Assembly: GCF_964355755.1 (NCBI RefSeq)
Contig: NC_092670.1
Location: forward strand, 1,885,001-1,949,000
DNA: 64,000 nucleotides
Source of the DNA: Antedon mediterranea
Lineage: Eukaryota > Echinodermata > Crinoidea > Comatulida > Antedonidae
Direction: 5' to 3'
In this document: positions 41,801 through 64,000 of the stretch, in pieces
How the letters are laid out: every line of letters begins with the position of its first letter
Position numbering within the stretch: position 1 is the first letter of the stretch
Made by a program: the position numbers and the translations under genes
Notes under the pieces: model-generated
Databases searched by the model: none
What the model was told of the DNA's origin: nothing
What the model saw: the letters and a program-made list of their open reading frames with translations, nothing else

Positions 41801-44800
41801 ATTGTGTTCTCCATCTTGAAGCCGTGAAAAATGTAGAATGAAACAAATACCTTTTAACATTTGTTGTTTTGTTCCAGGAAACTCTAAACAATTTTGGTTC
41901 CGACTGTCTGAAGAAGGACGAATGTCAGCTATGGCTGGGGTCGGCATCCCCACAGTTTGATAATAGAGGATGTGCAGGTTGGGGAGGATCTCTGAAGAAA
42001 ATGGCACAATGGATCAAGAATGACACCTCGGGGTTAGATTAATGATTAATTAAAGCTCTTTCTACACACTAATTTGAAAAAAAAAGTGGAATGTGCCCAA
42101 ATATGGTAGTGATATGCCCAAATATGATACTGATATGACATCCTCATGTCCATATATGGGCACATCACATTTTTTGTCACATCATGTGTTCTCCATCTAT
42201 GAACCTGTGTCATGGTGTGTTAAATGTCACAATGCAGACTTTGTTACTAGTCTTGTTTATTTACTTTAGTCTTGCATTTCTCATCCTTCAGATGACTCTC
42301 CTTGAATCTTAAGTATGTTCAGAAAAGGTGCAAAACATTAGTACACAGGTGTCCATTTTAAAAGAGTAATCATATCCCTGTATTGATGATCATGGCAGAT
42401 GGCAGTACTCACACAACCAATACATGCTCTAATTTAGATTTATTTGTAATATTTTCAGAAATAACCTGGATATTTTTGATGTCCAATGGCGTTACTACAC
42501 CAACCACGTAACAACAACAAACACCATCCTCATTCCAACACTTAATGACTTCTCCGAAGCATCTGTTGTCCTGGCGACAAACGAAACTACTCTCCAATCG
42601 CTGTTCAGCATTTTGTTTTTTGCTCGGGAGTGGAAACAGAATTGTTACTATGGCCATGATGAGCTGTTGTTATTTGGCTTTTTGGATTGGTTTACAATGT
42701 ATAAAGAAGCAGAATTTTTGGGTCGCACTCCAAATCTAAATGGTAGGTGGAGTCAAACAAGGTACTTCAAGCCCATAGAAACTTACAGCACCTAACAAGG
42801 TGCTTAAAGACGCTTACAGCACCTAACAAGGCGCTTAAAGACGCTTACAGCACCTAACAAGGTGCTTAAAGACGCTTACAGCACCTAACAAGGCGCTTAA
42901 AGACGCTTACAGCACCTAACAAGGCGCTTAAAGACGCTTACAGCACCTAACAAGGCGCTTAAAGACGCTTACAGCACCTAACAAGGCGCTTAAAGACGCT
43001 TACAGCACCTAACAAGGCGCTTAAAGACACTTACAGCTACAGTACCTAACAAGGCGCTTAAAGACGCTTACAGCACCTAACAAGACGCTTACAGCACCTA
43101 ACAAGACGCTTAAAGACGCTTACAGCACCTAACAAGGCGCTTAAAGACACTTACAGCACCTAACAAGGCGCTTAAAGACGCTTACAGCACCTAACAAGGC
43201 GCTTAAAGACGCTCACCATTCAGCACCTAACAAGGCGCTTAAAGACGCTCACCATTCAGCACCTAACATGGCGCTTAAAGACGCTCACCATTCAGCACCT
43301 AACATGGCGCTTAAAGACGCTCACCATTCAGCACCTAACAAGGCGCTTAAAGACGCTCACCATTCAGCACCTAACATGGCGCTTAAAGACGCTCACCATT
43401 CAGCACCTAACAAGGCGCTTAAAGACGCTCACCATTCAGCACCTAACAAGGCGCTTAAAGACGCTCACCATTCAGCACCTAACAAGGCGCTTAAAGACGC
43501 TCACCATTCAGCACCTAACAAGACGCTTAAAGACGCTCACCATTCAGCACCTAACATGGCGCTTAAAGACGCTCACCATTCAGCACCTAACATGGCGCTT
43601 AAAGACGCTCACCATTCAGCACCTAACAAGGCGCTTAAAGACGCTCACCATTCAGCACCTAACAAGACGCTTAAAGACGCTCACCATTCAGCACCTAACA
43701 AGGCGCTTAAAGACGCTCACCATTCAGCACCTAACATGGCGCTTAAAGACGCTCACCATTCAGCACCTAACAAGGCGCTTAAAGACGCTCACCATTCAGC
43801 ACCTAACAAGGCGCTTAAAGACGCTCACCATTCAGCACCTAACATGGCGCTTAAAGACGCTCACCATTCAGCACCTAACAAGGCGCTTAAAGACGCTCAC
43901 CATTCAGCACCTAACATGGCGCTTAAAGACGCTCACCATTCAGCACCTAACATGGCGCTTAAAGACGCTCACCATTCAGCACCTAACATGGCGCTTAAAG
44001 ACGCTCACCATTCAGCACCTAACATGGCGCTTAAAGACGCTCACCATTCAGCACCTAACAAGGCGCTTAAAGACGCTCACCATTCAGCACCTAACATGGC
44101 GCTTAAAGACGCTCACCATTCAGCACCTAACAAGACGCTTAAAGACGCTCACCATTCAGCACCTAACATGGCGCTTAAAGACGCTCACCATTCAGCACCT
44201 AACAAGACGCTTAAAGACGCTCACCATTCAGCACCTAACAAGACGCTTAAAGACGCTCACCATTCAGCACCTAACATGGCGCTTAAAGACGCTCACCATT
44301 CAGCACCTAACATGGCGCTTAAAGACGCTCACCATTCAGCACCTAACAAGGCGCTTAAAGATGCTCACCATTCAGCACCTAACAAGACGCTTAAAGACGC
44401 TCACCATTCAGCACCTAACAAGGCACTTAAAGACGCTCACCATTCAGATTATTTACTGTATGTTTCATTTTTCAGCAACCAATGTAATGACATTACTTGA
44501 AGAGACTGGACAATGGATAAGTGAGCAGAACATGACTAATGCTAAACAAAGCCTGAATAAAGCAAGGTAGTATTACAGGATTTATGTATAAGTATCCATG
44601 TTCTGAAGGCACTCACAGATGTACTAGATAGTCTCCCTCAAGTGTCATGTTAAACACAGGCATTTTCTATTTGAAAAACAAAGAGTTTCGTTTCATTTGT
44701 TTCACAATAATAATAAAAAAGCACTTAAAAATCTGATTTGACTAGTTTCGTTAGACCATGCAGAAAGTACAAGTCCACATTTAGACCAAATTTTACTCTT

Positions 44801-55585: not shown

Positions 55586-56707
55586 AGTGGTGGTGGATGG
55601 ATGATAGGCCCCTCCTGCACTATCTACAGTATTAGGCTATCAAGTAGGCTAGGGAGTTGGTGCTTCTCTGCAGGATGGTTACTTGGTATTAACCGGCTGA
55701 ATGACGGCTATTTTAACTACGGAGTATCAAGCAAAATCAATATTGTCACTATAAAAACAATACATTTATCTTATTTAATTACTTACCACCAAAAAGTTTA
55801 AACTTGTTTGATGAAAACTCCCCCGTTACCGACCGTCGTAGCTCAGTCTTACCTCTCCATGTGAGAGACCCTGGAGAATAGGGAATCAACCATTTCCATA
55901 AAAACACATTATAAGTAAGTGTAGAGAAAATGTTATTTGTAAATACAAATCAACCCTTATCTGTATGGCAACTTCGTAAAGTACAAACTAATTAACATTA
56001 ATATAACAATAACCAAGATACAACTAGATTAAAATTTATGTAAATAAGAAAATATTATCAAGCATGAAAGACGAAACCCTTATTACAAAATGGAACGACC
56101 TTACAAGAAATAAACACGAGCTTGACCTTTGAACTTCCGAAAGACGTTCTCTTATAATTTGACAAGATTTGCGAAGTAAGTTGGCATGGGCGGTCTATTT
56201 TTATTGTTTATTAAATCAACAATATGTTCGTTAACAATGTGTAAAGTATTATCAAGAAAAGAGTATGATTGAAGAAAAATGTTGTGCAATCTACAGTATG
56301 CCGTTTTAGCGTGAATTTAGCTGTAAAACGTTAAATAAATAGACTAACCTTTAAGTACTCTAACCAGAGTGTGGTCCACAGTTCACACGACCAGCAGTGT
56401 AGGCTGGTGTAGACTCAACTAGGCCCTAGCTAGGCTGCCCTGCCTGGTTGATAGCCCAACTTTCCTGACAAACGGAAAGCTAATATTTTGGTCAGTACTG
56501 TGTCAATTATCAGGAGAGGTTTACAACCTTGTTAATATGGCTACTTACAATCGAACAATTAATTGTAATTTTAATATTTGAGTTTTCTGCAACTATCTAT
56601 CAGATATGATAATACTTATCTAACTTTATTATTAACTGTATCATATTTTCATATTTAATACGATCAGTAGGCCTACTGATATACACAAAAAAAAGAAGTA
56701 CAATATT

Positions 56708-59053
56708 ATGGCTTCAGAAAAATGTAATGAGGAAGAAATAGACTTTGAGTCTGACAAAAATTTTGTCTTTATAAAAATCGAAGAAAAAGACAATGATGAA
56801 GAAAATATCCGTAGGCAGGTGTGTTTGGAATCTGTTGACATATTGAAGAATCCACACGATCATGATCTATATAGTCTTAACACCACTGCCATGCAAGAGG
56901 ATGTAGAGCAGACATCACAAAAACATGTCTTGAGCAGTGGCGATGTGTTGGAGACGGAACAAAATTCACAGGTTTTGAGTAGTGATGATATGCAAGTCAA
57001 AGAAGAACACAAGTCACTGCCACCGGTCTTGAGCAGTAAGGGCATGGAAGAGCAGGAGGAACAGGGAACTCTGAAACAATTTTTGAGCAGTACTAGTAAT
57101 GTCAAAAGAGTTAGAAGATTCCAAATGAAATGGAAGCTGAAGTATCCCTGGATCGATTACATTGGGGATTATGACCTTATAAATGGCGTTATGATTTGCA
57201 CAATTTGTCGAGAGTACAGAAAGCATGCCGATCAAAACTCCAATTTTTTAAATGGAACAAGCACTTTTAGACTTGGTGCAATTGATGCTCATAACATTAG
57301 TAAAGGTCATAAGAAATGTATTGCAATGAAGCTGATGGAAACTGTCGACCAAGGTACAGCGATTGAGAATCTTTTAAAAATGAATCAAGAACGATCGGCA
57401 AGAATAAGATTACAAAGAAATGAAAGAAGAAAAAATCGCAGAAAGAAAATTGCGGGATTGATAGATGGGCTTGTGAATGGATCAATGGTGTCATGTGACA
57501 AACCAGCAGTAAGCAATGTAACTATACAATGTGATAAAAAATCTAATAATATAAGTGACAATAATTTGAAAAGAGAATCGCCTCCAATGGAAATACAAAA
57601 GCAAACACTACCAACATCGCTTCCAGACACAAGTCATAGTTTCACACCACCGAAAAAGCCCCGATTGGTTGATTATGAAAGAAACAGAATTCGTCGTTTT
57701 CAGTCGACGTGGCAGCTAGAGTTCCCATGGCTTGATTATTTAGGAGATCCTGATCGCCATAACGGCGTCATGTACTGCAAGATTTGTAGACTTTTTCCAG
57801 AGATTGCAGATCAATCTTCTAAATTTTTTTCCGGTACAAGTAGCTTTCGTAGAGGGGGAATTGAATCGCATAACATCAGTGTCGCACACCGTGCATGTCT
57901 TTGTAGAAAGAATGCTCATGAATCTATGAATACAGATCCAACAGAAGAATATGTTGATAATCAATCCAGAAGATTTGTCAGAAAGACAACAGAGAATGCT
58001 ACAAATGAAATCATAAACGATTTACCAAGTATATCAAACCAACCAACTTATACTGAAGTAATTGGTTTACATGAAAACTCTTTTATTCCAGAAGATGGTT
58101 TCGACCAGGTTTTATTCCAGAATGATTGGACCTCACTGTTTCCTTGGGTGGCATATACAGGTTCTAGGTCAACTAGTGACGTGTACTGTAGAATATGTAG
58201 ATTGCATCCTCATGATGCTGACATCAATTCTAAATTATTTAAAGGTACAAAGATAGTACAAAAGCGTTTACTCCAACTGCATTCGGAAAGTGCATCGCAT
58301 ATTCTTTGTGTAGCAAAACAGTTTTTCGATGAATCTTTAGGAGATTATAATTTTCACTCACCATTACCAATAAATCATTCTTCATCAAACAGTTGTACTC
58401 CTTTGAAGTTGTCATCAAGCAATCACTCATCAGAAATTTTATCTCGCAATCAGACTTCTCTTAATTTTCTATCATACAGTCCCACTACTTCACATTCATT
58501 ATTGCAGTGTCAGACATATTCAGAACCAGCATTACATATTCCACAAGCTCCAAATCAAATATCAGCGGACTTTCCACTTCCTCAAACTGAAATAAACTGT
58601 AAACCATACACACCCATGTGTCGAAGATATAATGAGAAACGTAAACTTCTTGAGTCTAGCAGCCACCAGAGTAATCTTTCCCATCAAAGGTCACATGCAG
58701 CTGCTTTGGAGACCACGTCATGGCAGCCGCAAGAAGAAACTAAGACAGAAGAGTTCTGTAATGTTTCTACATGGAAGAGTGAATTTGTTTGGTTAGACTT
58801 TGACTGTGGTTCTGGTGTCATGACCTGTAAACTCTGTCAATGCTATCCAATGGATGCGTCAACATCGGAATTCTTGAAAGGTTCTAAACATTTTAGTAGA
58901 GACCACTTAGTTCAACATGCCAAAAGTAACGGACACAGAGCTGCTGTTTGTCGTAACTTTCTTGCAATTCTTGCTAAGCAGAACACAAATCCTGAAATGG
59001 AAAATGATAAAGTAACGTATAATGATTTGCCAGAAGAACAAGGTCATAGGTAA
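56708..59053 (+). CDS. Protein with four tandem TTF/BED-like zinc fingers (possibly the 5' exon of a fusion with the M20 gene)
   Basis: A single open exon of 781 codons. The first ~130 residues are acidic with four spaced LSS-containing repeats. Four related modules follow, with the first Trp at residues 142, 335, 474 and 689. Each reads W-x(5-6)-PW/VW-x-D/A-Y/F, then C-x2-C, then F-x2-G-T/S, then H-x-S/I-x-(2-3)-H. This resembles the zinc-binding N-terminal module of hAT-derived proteins such as ZNF862 or KIAA1586. No transposase catalytic or dimerisation domain is present. A basic PPKKPRL stretch between modules 1 and 2 could be a nuclear signal. The stop TAA (59051-59053) begins one base inside a consensus donor AG|GTAAAT at 59049/59050, so the reading frame may not end here. 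DNA or protein binding is inference. An AATAAA near 59273 would allow an independent transcript. Confidence 0.85.
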   Translation: MASEKCNEEEIDFESDKNFVFIKIEEKDNDEENIRRQVCLESVDILKNPHDHDLYSLNTTAMQEDVEQTSQKHVLSSGDVLETEQNSQVLSSDDMQVKEEHKSLPPVLSSKGMEEQEEQGTLKQFLSSTSNVKRVRRFQMKWKLKYPWIDYIGDYDLINGVMICTICREYRKHADQNSNFLNGTSTFRLGAIDAHNISKGHKKCIAMKLMETVDQGTAIENLLKMNQERSARIRLQRNERRKNRRKKIAGLIDGLVNGSMVSCDKPAVSNVTIQCDKKSNNISDNNLKRESPPMEIQKQTLPTSLPDTSHSFTPPKKPRLVDYERNRIRRFQSTWQLEFPWLDYLGDPDRHNGVMYCKICRLFPEIADQSSKFFSGTSSFRRGGIESHNISVAHRACLCRKNAHESMNTDPTEEYVDNQSRRFVRKTTENATNEIINDLPSISNQPTYTEVIGLHENSFIPEDGFDQVLFQNDWTSLFPWVAYTGSRSTSDVYCRICRLHPHDADINSKLFKGTKIVQKRLLQLHSESASHILCVAKQFFDESLGDYNFHSPLPINHSSSNSCTPLKLSSSNHSSEILSRNQTSLNFLSYSPTTSHSLLQCQTYSEPALHIPQAPNQISADFPLPQTEINCKPYTPMCRRYNEKRKLLESSSHQSNLSHQRSHAAALETTSWQPQEETKTEEFCNVSTWKSEFVWLDFDCGSGVMTCKLCQCYPMDASTSEFLKGSKHFSRDHLVQHAKSNGHRAAVCRNFLAILAKQNTNPEMENDKVTYNDLPEEQGHR

Positions 59054-59385
59054 ATGCCTACAATCTATTAGAAGTAGAAAACACCAATTTGGTTTCCTTT
59101 TAAAATATTATTAACATTGTTAAAAATATATCACTTGGGATTTTCTGAAGTACCTAGTTTAAATGTTTTAATTGATCTATAAATTGGGAAACCACTACAA
59201 TATGGGCTTTTAAGGCACTTTGAAACATACCTGGCCTTCTGAAGCATATCTCTGTGTAGAATGTTATTGTTAAATAAAAAAAATATTAATAATCATTTAC
59301 AGTATGCATACGGTAATTTCTTTGAAAAGCAACATTAGATTTAACATTGTCGTTAATGTTTTCACATTTTTTCTCCAACAGGCAA

Positions 59386-62300
59386 ATGATAAAAAGAGCC
59401 GCAAGTATGGAAGAGTTCAATAAAATGCGTGACAAAGCTAAGAGCGCTATTGACGACTCTGCAGCTGACTTGAACACCATCAGTCAGGAGATTTGGTCGA
59501 ACCCAGAACTAGCGTATGAAGAACACCATGCCCACAAGATCCTTACAAACTTTTTGGAAAAACAAGGCTTCGAAGTTGAGCGTAAATACATCTTGGACAC
59601 TGCCTTCCGAGCTACATGGGGTACAGATGGGGGCGTTACCATAGGAGTCATATGTGAATATGACGCCCTTCCAGGGATAGGACATGCTTGCGGACATAAT
59701 TTGATTGCAGAATGTGGAGTTGCTACTGCTATTGGTATTAAAGCTGCTCTTGAGATGAACTTAGTTAAAGATCTTAAAGCAAAGGTAAACACAATTTTGA
59801 GCAGTTTTATAGTCATTTTGTTTTTATCCTTGCTTTAACTACTCAGTTGAGAGAATCGTAGTCCTTCTGTGCTCGTGGTGTGATACAACTATACAATACA
59901 GTGGCCATTTTGTAGAGTCACTGCCCTGCTCATATCAATTTGATGTTGCCTAGTTTTACAGATCTCTGAATTCAACAACCATACACTCCATGTATATATT
60001 TAAAAGAGGCTCTTAGAAACATATTTTTAAAACAATTTACCCAAAATGATTAATTTATTAATACACTGGAGCTTGTAAGTAATAGTAAATTTATTTATGA
60101 TAAAAAATGTGACCTCTTTAATTTATGAATTAAAGAATATATATGCAAATATTGTTGCTGGTAGAATTAGTACAAAGGACATGTGATTACAAGTATTATA
60201 ATTTATGAATGAACCAAGACCAGGATTTTATACAACACAGTCTAATCATAAAAAACAACCAATTTAAGATTATATTTATTATAATATAATGCATACACTA
60301 CGGTAATACATTTTTTAGGCCACTAATTATCTTGCTTGTACTTTAAACCCTTTTGCATACACACTAATGTATATTTAACCTAAAAAAATAATATAAACAT
60401 CATTTACTAATACAATTCAATGTCGTGGAAAGTAAACAAGTTTAGTTTAAACCTCCAAAAAGTTTACAACTTGTGCGAGTTGAAACAGTTGTACAGTACA
60501 GTATTAACTTCTGTCATAATCATTTGTTTTTAAAAAGCATAGATTCATATCTTTTTCTGTCAAAGTCTTCAGATAGGTTGAACTTTCATTTTTCTTAGAT
60601 TGTTGTGCTTGGTACACCAGCAGAAGAAGGGGGTGGAGGAAAATGCCAGATGATTGAACGTGGTGCATTTGATGGCTTAGACGTTGCAATGATGGCCCAT
60701 CCATACGCCCACAATGTCTCAAGACCAAAAGCACTGTCCATGCTAGAGTAAGAATCCTGAACAAACTATTATATTTAAGTTTAAGGGAGAATAGAATTTG
60801 TTATTTTGAAATAAGTTTTGTCAGCTTATATTGAGTTTTGAGATAGTTGCCTGTATATTATGTCCCAAAACTCAAGCCCACAGCATCATTACAACCAAAA
60901 GCTCCCTTAAGATTTTATAGAAGCCTGTCTTAAGGAAGTCTGGTTTTCACATGTATTATAAATAAATATTATACCTGGTAAATATCTTTTAAAGTATTTC
61001 AACATGATAAAAATGATATGCCTTCATCATCAAATTACTTTACTACAGCATGTTTTTTTTACAGTATAAATTTAATTAAAATGTTAAATTTCAGATTAAA
61101 GATTAGTTACCATGGTAAATCAGCACATGCAGCTGCAGCACCATGGGAAGGTGTCAATGCATTAGATGCTGCCGTAGCATGCTATAGCAATTTATCAAAT
61201 CTACGCCAGCAGATGAAACCAGATTGGAGAATCCATGGTAAATAAGGATATAATTCTCATAGTCAGGAGTTCTTGATGATTTTCTGTCTATCAAAACTTG
61301 TCCTGTAGCTCTGAATAGCATACACTGACTTTTAATCTACTATAATAAAATGAGAAATTTGTTATAATTTATTCATAAAAAATTAGGTAAATATAATATA
61401 TATAAACATTTTTAGGTATTATAACTAATGGAGGACTTCAGGCAAATATCATTCCTGATAAGGCGGAGCTATCGTACTACTTGAGGGCGCCAGATGAAGA
61501 GAATTTAGCACTGCTAAAAGAGAAAGCAGTAGCATGTATTGAGGGAGCTGCCAAGTCTACTGGTTGCCAGGTAATACTATTGATTTTCTAAGAATAATTT
61601 TTTTCTGCAGGAATAATTAATGTCATATATAAATATTTTTTTTTTACATTTTACTAACACCAGGGTGTCATTTTAAGCTAGCAGTGTGTGTGTCAACATC
61701 ATTCCAACTTTTGAATTTGAAAATTACACCTCTGCAAACATTTATTTTCCAGGCTATGTTTTTGTTCAACCCCCTATGTATATCGCTAAGTCATAACACA
61801 CACCTTTCCAATGTCTATGAAAAGCAACTCCAGATTTTAAAACCGGATGAAACAAAGGACGCAAAGTCTGAGAATAAGGAAAACAAACCTGAGACTAATG
61901 GGGGTGCTAATGGCTCCAACAATCTGAGTAAAAATGCAGAAGTTATGATGGATTCGGTAGATATTGGAGAACTGTCTTTGAATATCATAAGCCTTTTTGT
62001 TTCATACGCCATTGACGATGATACTCTGTATGGAACAGAAGCGTTTAATCAAATATGTGGTATGAATACCGTTGGTATTGATATAAATGTTAATTTAGTT
62101 GGAGCAGAGTATAGTGGGGTTTTGTCTTGTCCTGTAGTCTTCATATCAAAGGTTCTGATCTCATATCTGTTTTCTTCTTCTAAGGTAAAACACTAAATAT
62201 CAGACTAATGGGTTCATTTGTGGTTCTTATTCTTTGATATAAAAGATCATTTTGCTCTAAAAAATGCAATCATTATGTGAAAGTGCAATGCATACAGCAA

Positions 62301-63034
62301 GTGATTGATCATACAACATTGTATTTCATTGCCTAATGCTTTTTAAACTATAAAACTGGGGGGAAAAAAGATATATTTTCACTTCGTTCAATTAGGGTGA
62401 AAATTGACAACTACACCTTTTTTAAACATCATCATAAAATTTTTTATTATTGTTATATTATCACAAAATGAAAAAACACTACATTAGCATCGCTGCACTA
62501 GAAAAGAAGCATGTTATTGATACGGGTATACAGTTTGAAAAATGTGACTTTGCATGTAGTAAACTTAAAATATCAACACGCACATGGATTGGGTGACCTC
62601 ACAAATGTTACACTGAGAATTTATATGTGGCATGTGATGATATCAATGCAGATGCACCTACCACTTACTTTATTAAATCAGGTATGTGCTTGTTTGTTGT
62701 TTTCATTAGGAGTCATGTAGCTACAAAAAGCTTGTGACAAATAGGTGTTTTCCTAAATTTTAAGTAAATGTTTACTTATTTATAAAGCTAAATATAGTTC
62801 TTATTATAAAAACAACATGTTGTTGCATTTTAAATTAATTTGCTTGTTTGATTTTTTTGTCCAGGGTCAGAAGCAGCTCAGGTGCCTACATTGATCCAGG
62901 CCAAAGCATTCGCATTGACTGCCCTGGAATTGGCTTATCCTATCAACGAGGGAATGCTTCAAAATATTCGCAAGGAGTTCCAAGACACTGTAAAACCAAA
63001 ACAACCAAACAAAGAGAAAGCTGAAGAGAACTGA
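59386..63034 (+). CDS. PM20D2: Peptidase M20 domain-containing protein 2 (M20 metallopeptidase/amidohydrolase)
   Basis: PM20D2 (ACY1L2) type cytosolic dipeptidase; the family hydrolyses beta-alanyl or gamma-aminobutyryl dipeptides with basic residues. Exons: 59382-59784, 60599-60747, 61095-61237, 61416-61570, 61753-62059 and 62865-63034 (stop 63032-63034). From the ATG at 59386 this gives 440 residues, the usual family length. Motifs: [15 protein letters not shown] (metal ligands), [11 protein letters not shown] (catalytic Glu), [22 protein letters not shown] (dimerisation-domain His). The fifth exon is diverged and carries a Lys/Glu/Asn-rich insertion ([13 protein letters not shown]) where the family usually has none; it still aligns through YEKQ and SVDIGELS. 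The first exon starts in the phase of the upstream zinc-finger exon, so the true start may be 56708. Confidence 0.88.
62560..62681 (+). pseudogene. Decayed duplicate of the PM20D2 penultimate exon
   Basis: Two frames each carry part of an M20D2-like exon end. One frame has [18 protein letters not shown] and the other [15 protein letters not shown], joined to a good donor (TCAG|GTATGT) in the same phase as the exon ending at 62059. A frameshift between them and an in-frame TGA mean it cannot be used as it stands. Confidence 0.5.
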
Positions 63035-64000
63035 TCTGTTTTTCAATATTTTGTCAGTTATTTCTGCAGTAATAGCTACATTTGCTTCAGTATAATTGGT
63101 TGACTATAAAACTGTCAATAATATTAATAAGCACTGCAGTAATTTACTACAGTTATACTAAATAGATAATTGTATTAATACTTATTTTTCTTAAATCATT
63201 AAAATAAATCTTAAATGTAAATTGTCAATAGAACTATTGACATTTTTTTTTACTTATTGTAGTAAAATATGTTACTTTTAAAATAATTATGTGAAAGATG
63301 ATTACTGGTACTACAGTATTGAATACAATACAATTGAAATTTAATATGTATTAGTTTAAATTGTAATTTTTTAATTAAAATTGTAATTTTTTAATTAATA
63401 TTTGTAAAGATTACTAAATATGACAAATTATTTAAATTTAAAATATTTTAAATGTGGATTTAAAATAATTATGGGATTTTGTTTATTTGTAACATGAATA
63501 ATGTGGGTTTGTTATAATTAGGTTAAGATGCAGTGTAGACAGTTTTCCCACTTTAATTTAGACTTCTCTTTAAATAAAATCAAGTGAACATGCCTTTATA
63601 ACAGATTTATTGTCTAAGGAAACAAATTATAATTAAAAATATTTAAATACAATAATTTCAGTATTTATGTGTATTTAATAAAAGTTATTAACTTGAATCA
63701 TGAATGTGCATTTTTTTCTGGTAATTAGTGATTGTTTTTTTCTCAAAATATTATTAGCCACAAAAACCTATTCATACATTCATGGTTTATCAATTAAAGC
63801 CGATTGTTTTTTGACAGTGCAAATTTTTGATATTTTTTTCTAAAACAAGCCATTTTATTTTATCCGTGTACCGTAGGTTGAAATAAAACAGCAAATACAT
63901 TATAAAAATCTTTTGACGAACTCTGCTTTGATATCGCTTTATGAGAAGTATGCAAGCAATTTAGGTGTTCATTTTGGAGAATCTAATTTTACACATGGAT
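63035..64000. other. 3' UTR and downstream flank of PM20D2
   Basis: AT-rich sequence with an AATAAA at 63203-63208 (169 bases past the stop) and further ones near 63565 and 63677. No gene seen. Confidence 0.6.

Follow-up and report, generated by a model that had tools for sequence, protein, structure and literature searches.

The locus considered here raises the question of whether an open reading frame (ORF) with four zinc fingers and the PM20D2 gene that follows it can be joined in one spliced message, or whether they are two neighbours. The initial annotation had proposed a possible fusion. The window, a stretch of 64,000 nucleotides, corresponds to C1:1885001-1949000 of an assembly of 354 Mb in 18 contigs, and in it the stop of the four-finger ORF and the PM20D2 gene lie head to tail, about 350 bases apart. 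The features around the candidate junction are the following.

56708..59053, + strand: four-finger ORF, 781 codons, without intron, with a PF25431 match
57110..57340, + strand: finger 1 (zf-C17orf113), C-x2-C and H-x5-H ligands kept
57689..57922, + strand: finger 2 (zf-C17orf113), ligands kept, with a predicted model
58103..58333, + strand: finger 3 (zf-C17orf113), ligands kept, weakest of the four
58754..58975, + strand: finger 4 (zf-C17orf113), ligands kept
59047..59055, + strand: donor-like 9-mer TAG/GTAAAT over the finger stop codon, score 8.38
59050..59381, + strand: gap of 332 bp, candidate intron or intergenic, with AATAAA at 59273 and TATAAAT at 59178
Ends at 59302 and 59381, + strand: candidate acceptor AGs in the gap
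59382..59784, + strand: PM20D2 coding exon 1, with ATGs at 59386 and 59407
60599..60747, + strand: PM20D2 exon 2, GT-AG join
61095..61237, + strand: PM20D2 exon 3, GT-AG join
61416..61570, + strand: PM20D2 exon 4, GT-AG join

Elsewhere in the window, positions 43145-44497 hold a minisatellite-like stretch of 451 open codons with 34 copies of LKDAHHSAPN, in which a second frame is open too. Two short sequences are over-represented in the window: TAGGCCTA, a sequence presumably also present in echinoderm DNA, occurs 46 times on both strands together against 0.64 expected per strand, and GTAGGCCTAC is counted 12 times on both strands together. Searches of the assembly for COX1, GFP, and GH6 gave no match; those for GFP and GH6 gave none in the control genomes either, so their absence carries no weight.

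The finger ORF, previously described as open for 781 codons, is indeed open throughout from 56708 to 59053 on the + strand. The chance of 780 open codons at the ORF's own base composition is about 1e-25, so this stretch is very likely a genuine coding exon. Its start codon lies in good context, with A at -3 and G at +4. The Pfam model PF25431 (zf-C17orf113) matches the protein in four stretches (E 1.8e-37) with a score of 127.5 bits, above the curated cut-off of 29.5, and the C-x2-C and H-x5-H patterns of the family are kept. The zinc ligands C30, C33, H61, and H67 are invariant in ten of ten aligned domains, four of which come from this ORF; among the other finger loci of the genome, the alignment covered six of eight (L003, L007, L009, L010, L011, and L012), the remaining two being L013 and one place on C8. 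Structure prediction gave a confident model for finger 2 (mean pLDDT 91.6), none of the seven matches listed from its fold search against the PDB reaches E 0.001, and a search by sequence for a solved relative of the finger gave none at E up to 0.1. The fingers had also been called BED/TTF-like, a label that does not hold: at E up to 1, no BED or TTF Pfam model matches, and besides PF25431 the scan gave nothing but a TERB2 match below threshold. At the same threshold, no transposase catalytic or dimerisation domain (hAT) is found in the ORF. The gene was also considered as a transposon with terminal inverted repeats and this was rejected, as 55800-59600 holds only six short imperfect pairs. 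The four-finger gene probably derives from a zinc finger of the transposase type.

A genome-wide search with PF25431 found at least 11 places, three within the finger ORF and eight elsewhere, all of these counts being lower bounds; finger 3 is among the four PF25431 stretches of the ORF, yet has no entry at E 0.001 in this search. Set against the other zf-C17orf113 loci of this genome, in the window ORF no further Pfam domain follows the four fingers, whereas a DUF4371 match below the curated cut-off occurs at four of the six other loci scanned (L003, L009, L010, and L011, the match at L011 sitting in a neighbouring ORF). Loci L012 and L013 have identical frame length and score. Besides the locus itself, a DNA search of the genome with 56500-59500 listed one other place, a 221-bp fragment of finger 1 at C1:32127438-32127658 (L002:1513-1671 / L022), and thus gave no processed copy of the joined message. 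This partial copy is 80% identical in DNA, contains an internal TGA, and lies on the same contig as the finger ORF, 30 Mb off. For C17orf113, no paper was found in the literature searched.

Downstream, PM20D2 exons 1-4 join into an M20 dipeptidase and were found once on C1. The structure 7yh4 (Xaa-Arg dipeptidase), which we take to be human PM20D2, was matched by residues 17-283 of a query that carried a longer, wrong exon 5, and by residues 10-391 of the 397 (E 7.4e-116) encoded by exons 1-4 followed by the canonical exons 5gamma and 6gamma listed below. By this full-length similarity the gamma isoform appears to be a member of the PM20D2 / M20D dipeptidase family; its score against TIGR01891, 200.9 bits, is above the cut-off of 153.75. 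In the 7yh4 alignment it retains GHACGHN, EE, HP, and NHS (NHS for NHT), which are presumably the metal-binding positions of M20D enzymes. A reference title in PMC13311154 names PM20D2 as beta-alanyl-lysine dipeptidase. The second of the two ATGs of exon 1, at 59407, lies in good context (ATGG with A at -3).

The 3′ end of the gene proved to be more complex than first annotated. Position 63034 had been given as the end of PM20D2, but end-to-end alignment with human PM20D2 is obtained with the exons 63877-64105 and 64826-64965, the second of three terminal pairs.

61753..62059, + strand: exon 5alpha, doubtful: in frame and bounded by GT-AG, but highly divergent and with the last metal-binding His substituted
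62460..62682, + strand: stretch resembling a decayed exon 5, by eye with stops and frame changes; tblastn match 62517-62612, E 0.44
62865..63034, + strand: exon 6alpha, 62% identical to 6gamma over 45 codons
63877-64105 (L023:377-605), + strand: canonical exon 5gamma, running past the window end at 64000
64826-64965 (L023:1326-1465): exon 6gamma, outside the window
68030-68258 (L023:4530-4758): exon 5delta, outside the window
68569-68696 (L023:5069-5196): exon 6delta, outside the window

When the 210-residue alpha C-terminus was used as a query, residues 1-53 (exon 4) matched well and residues 119-197 (the end of 5alpha plus the last exon) only weakly; a search with it also led to a further last-exon copy, 60% identical, downstream of the window. 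The alpha isoform is without the last metal-binding His. The gamma and delta pairs have GT-AG edges, open frames, and the same phases, and a search with the delta pair likewise finds M20 enzymes (best E 7.7e-13). Between copies, dN and dS are 0.27 and 1.08 for 6alpha-6gamma (45 codons) and 0.61 and 2.71 for 6gamma-6delta (39 codons), while for 5gamma-5delta pN is 0.31 and pS 0.76 (72 codons; dS saturated). For 5alpha-5gamma, dN is 0.89 and dS 1.08 (42 codons, poor alignment), and 5alpha therefore shows no sign of constraint. Behind the single PM20D2 core there are thus two intact terminal exon pairs, gamma and delta, and one doubtful pair, alpha. Judged from their edges and frames, gamma and delta form an array of tandem homologous terminal exons with compatible phases and intact frames. 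These tandem pairs, an unexpected find of the analysis, set the locus apart from PM20D2 in that several last exon pairs stand behind one set of exons 1-4; the possible N-terminal fingers are the other difference. The arrangement, a candidate for alternative use, resembles alternative or mutually exclusive terminal exons in having tandem copies of one exon pair in matching phases, with the difference that each pair here encodes the C-terminal part of the enzyme's catalytic domain.

The only other PM20D2-like gene listed, at C8:12390194-12391928 (L019:1477-3211), has open exons and its own ATG, with the start at about the same place as in PM20D2. It reads GHASGRN for GHACGHN, HE for EE, and QP for HP, with NHT kept, and is apparently a non-catalytic relative. 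No finger match lies near it in the genome-wide PF25431 search.

The case for joining the two ORFs begins with the donor. The stop TAA of the finger ORF does lie within a splice donor at 59049/59050, as had been claimed, and this donor is strong. Its score was obtained with the identical 9-mer of a SEC14-like gene left out of training. In the window, 66 of 7285 GTs on both strands score as high, as do 9 of 22 inferred real donors. The models were trained on 22 donors and 20 acceptors placed by eye, with human homologues as a guide, in PM20D2, the C8 paralog, and four genes of the window whose names (galactokinase-, acyl-CoA-synthetase-, SEC14-, and eIF3b-like) are presumed identities. The training set included the gamma and delta exon edges but neither edge of 5alpha, nor the 6alpha acceptor, nor two short acceptors. 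Elsewhere in the window, the donors that follow PM20D2 exon 2 and a galactokinase-like exon, both belonging to inferred introns, likewise have an in-frame TAA, so that a stop in this place is no obstacle to an exon edge. The donor bears directly on the possibility that the two genes are independent, with the finger message ending in the gap, PM20D2 starting in it, and both donor and phase coincidental. A donor this strong overlaps only 55 of 8506 stop triplets in the window (52 of 4072 for TAA alone), which argues against such a coincidence, as does the need to fit a 3′ UTR, a promoter, and a 5′ UTR within 332 bp.

The acceptor is less telling. There is an AG at 59381, as annotated, but it is not the best one in the gap: 59302 outscores it under both models. 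Among 20 real acceptors, 15 score as high as 59381 in the 14-base model and 19 in the 24-base model, and the share of 75-bp stretches that contain one as good is 27% or 56%, respectively; the two models disagree on how weak it is. The acceptor lies within the real range, low in it, and is ordinary to weak. Splicing to 59302 would give 820 residues with a 40-residue tail outside the PM20D2 frame, its stop ending at 59423, an unattractive but conceivable product. With 59381, the frame does continue as described, through an Arg codon of two bases plus one across the 332-bp gap, a length comparable to PM20D2 introns 2 and 3 (347 and 178 bp, against 814 bp for intron 1). The agreement in phase counts for no more than a factor of 3. 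The joined product of 1222 residues stands as to its length and single terminal stop, but not as to its reliance on the doubtful exon 5 and on a 3′ end at 63034; with the canonical gamma last exons, the fused product has 1186 residues.

Other evidence favours two independent genes. Both ORFs have good start codons of their own, an acceptor like 59381 is common by chance, the C8 paralog has no finger match nearby, and the matching human chain, 454 residues long, aligns with PM20D2 over 44-441. The AATAAA at 59273, earlier cited in support of two genes, is compatible with them but has no weight because a 332-bp stretch drawn at random from the window carries one in 42% of cases. TATAAAT at 59178 is likewise compatible, and as a PM20D2 promoter it was rejected, since it is expected by chance in 13% of such stretches. 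Taken with the donor, these points leave two independent genes a real possibility, on the doubtful side.

At the other extreme, the finger ORF could be the first coding exon of an obligatory chimeric gene, with all PM20D2 made as a finger-dipeptidase. The donor, acceptor, and frame fit, and the gap is without a CpG-rich start signature, with 2 CpG against 7.1 expected in the 350 bp before the PM20D2 ATG. This last point is weak because values before other starts are mixed: CpG observed/expected is 1.07 for the galactokinase-like gene, 0.61 for the C8 paralog, 0.35 for the finger ORF, and 0.53 before the doubtful start of the acyl-CoA-synthetase-like gene. CpG depletion was accordingly rejected as a mark of the start of a transcription unit, given this mixture across five ORF starts. 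PM20D2, however, retains a start codon in good context, and an obligatory chimaera seems unlikely. A nested arrangement is also conceivable, in which a non-coding PM20D2 5′ exon lies upstream of 56708 and the intronless finger ORF sits inside the first intron, which ends at the acceptor 59381. The position of that acceptor just before the PM20D2 start codon and the lack of introns in the finger ORF agree with this and do not distinguish it from the other readings, but the strong donor over the finger stop would be superfluous, and the nested gene is highly improbable.

We tentatively prefer, as a credible if far from settled reading, a pair of adjacent, complete ORFs that a read-through splice isoform joins. 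The four-finger gene lies head to tail with PM20D2, which encodes an M20 dipeptidase and has a start codon of its own, and because the ORFs are so close, finger-gene transcripts could run on into PM20D2. Splicing from 59049 to 59382 would then remove the finger stop with the intron and yield a finger-dipeptidase chimaera. If the intron were retained or the RNA ended early, the stop would be read and the finger protein made alone, and PM20D2 alone may be produced from its own start codon. The splice letters, both ORFs, and the joined frame are directly present in the sequence. Fusion is favoured by the donor placed exactly over the finger stop, by the acceptor in matching phase, and by the shortness of a gap that would otherwise have to hold a 3′ end, a promoter, and a 5′ end; the weak to ordinary acceptor, the stronger out-of-frame 59302, and the PM20D2 start in good context speak against it. 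The existence of any fused message is judged somewhat probable, a judgement and not a calculation, and all of these estimates weigh in the guess that lineage-specific chimaeras are rare. The finger array could bring the chimaera to DNA. However, since a dipeptidase has no evident task there, the chimaera is most likely a by-product of read-through.

The finger family and the enzyme family are each already known. In host-transposase fusions in general, a transposon-derived part is joined to a host domain by splicing; here the finger part is upstream and the host enzyme downstream, which differs from the usual order in such genes. Like the host-transposase fusion genes covered in PMC8700633, this locus has a transposon-associated finger beside a host domain, possibly splice-joined. 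No finger-PM20D2 fusion is named in the portions of the literature searched.

A broader proposal, rather unlikely in our estimation, is that the whole is one modular-enzyme locus. Splicing of an intron that begins with the fingers' stop codon would retain or skip an optional array of four transposon-type fingers in front of a dipeptidase core, and the metal-completing C-terminal part of the enzyme would come from one of the tandem pairs, of which gamma and delta supply the last metal ligand and alpha does not; targeting to DNA and catalytic competence would then be set independently of each other. If the junction is used, the locus would represent the capture of a transposon-type finger array by a host enzyme, with the separate proteins and the chimaera all still makeable. 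If tandem terminal pairs do swap the part that completes the metal site, they would offer a simple route to active and inactive M20 forms from one gene.
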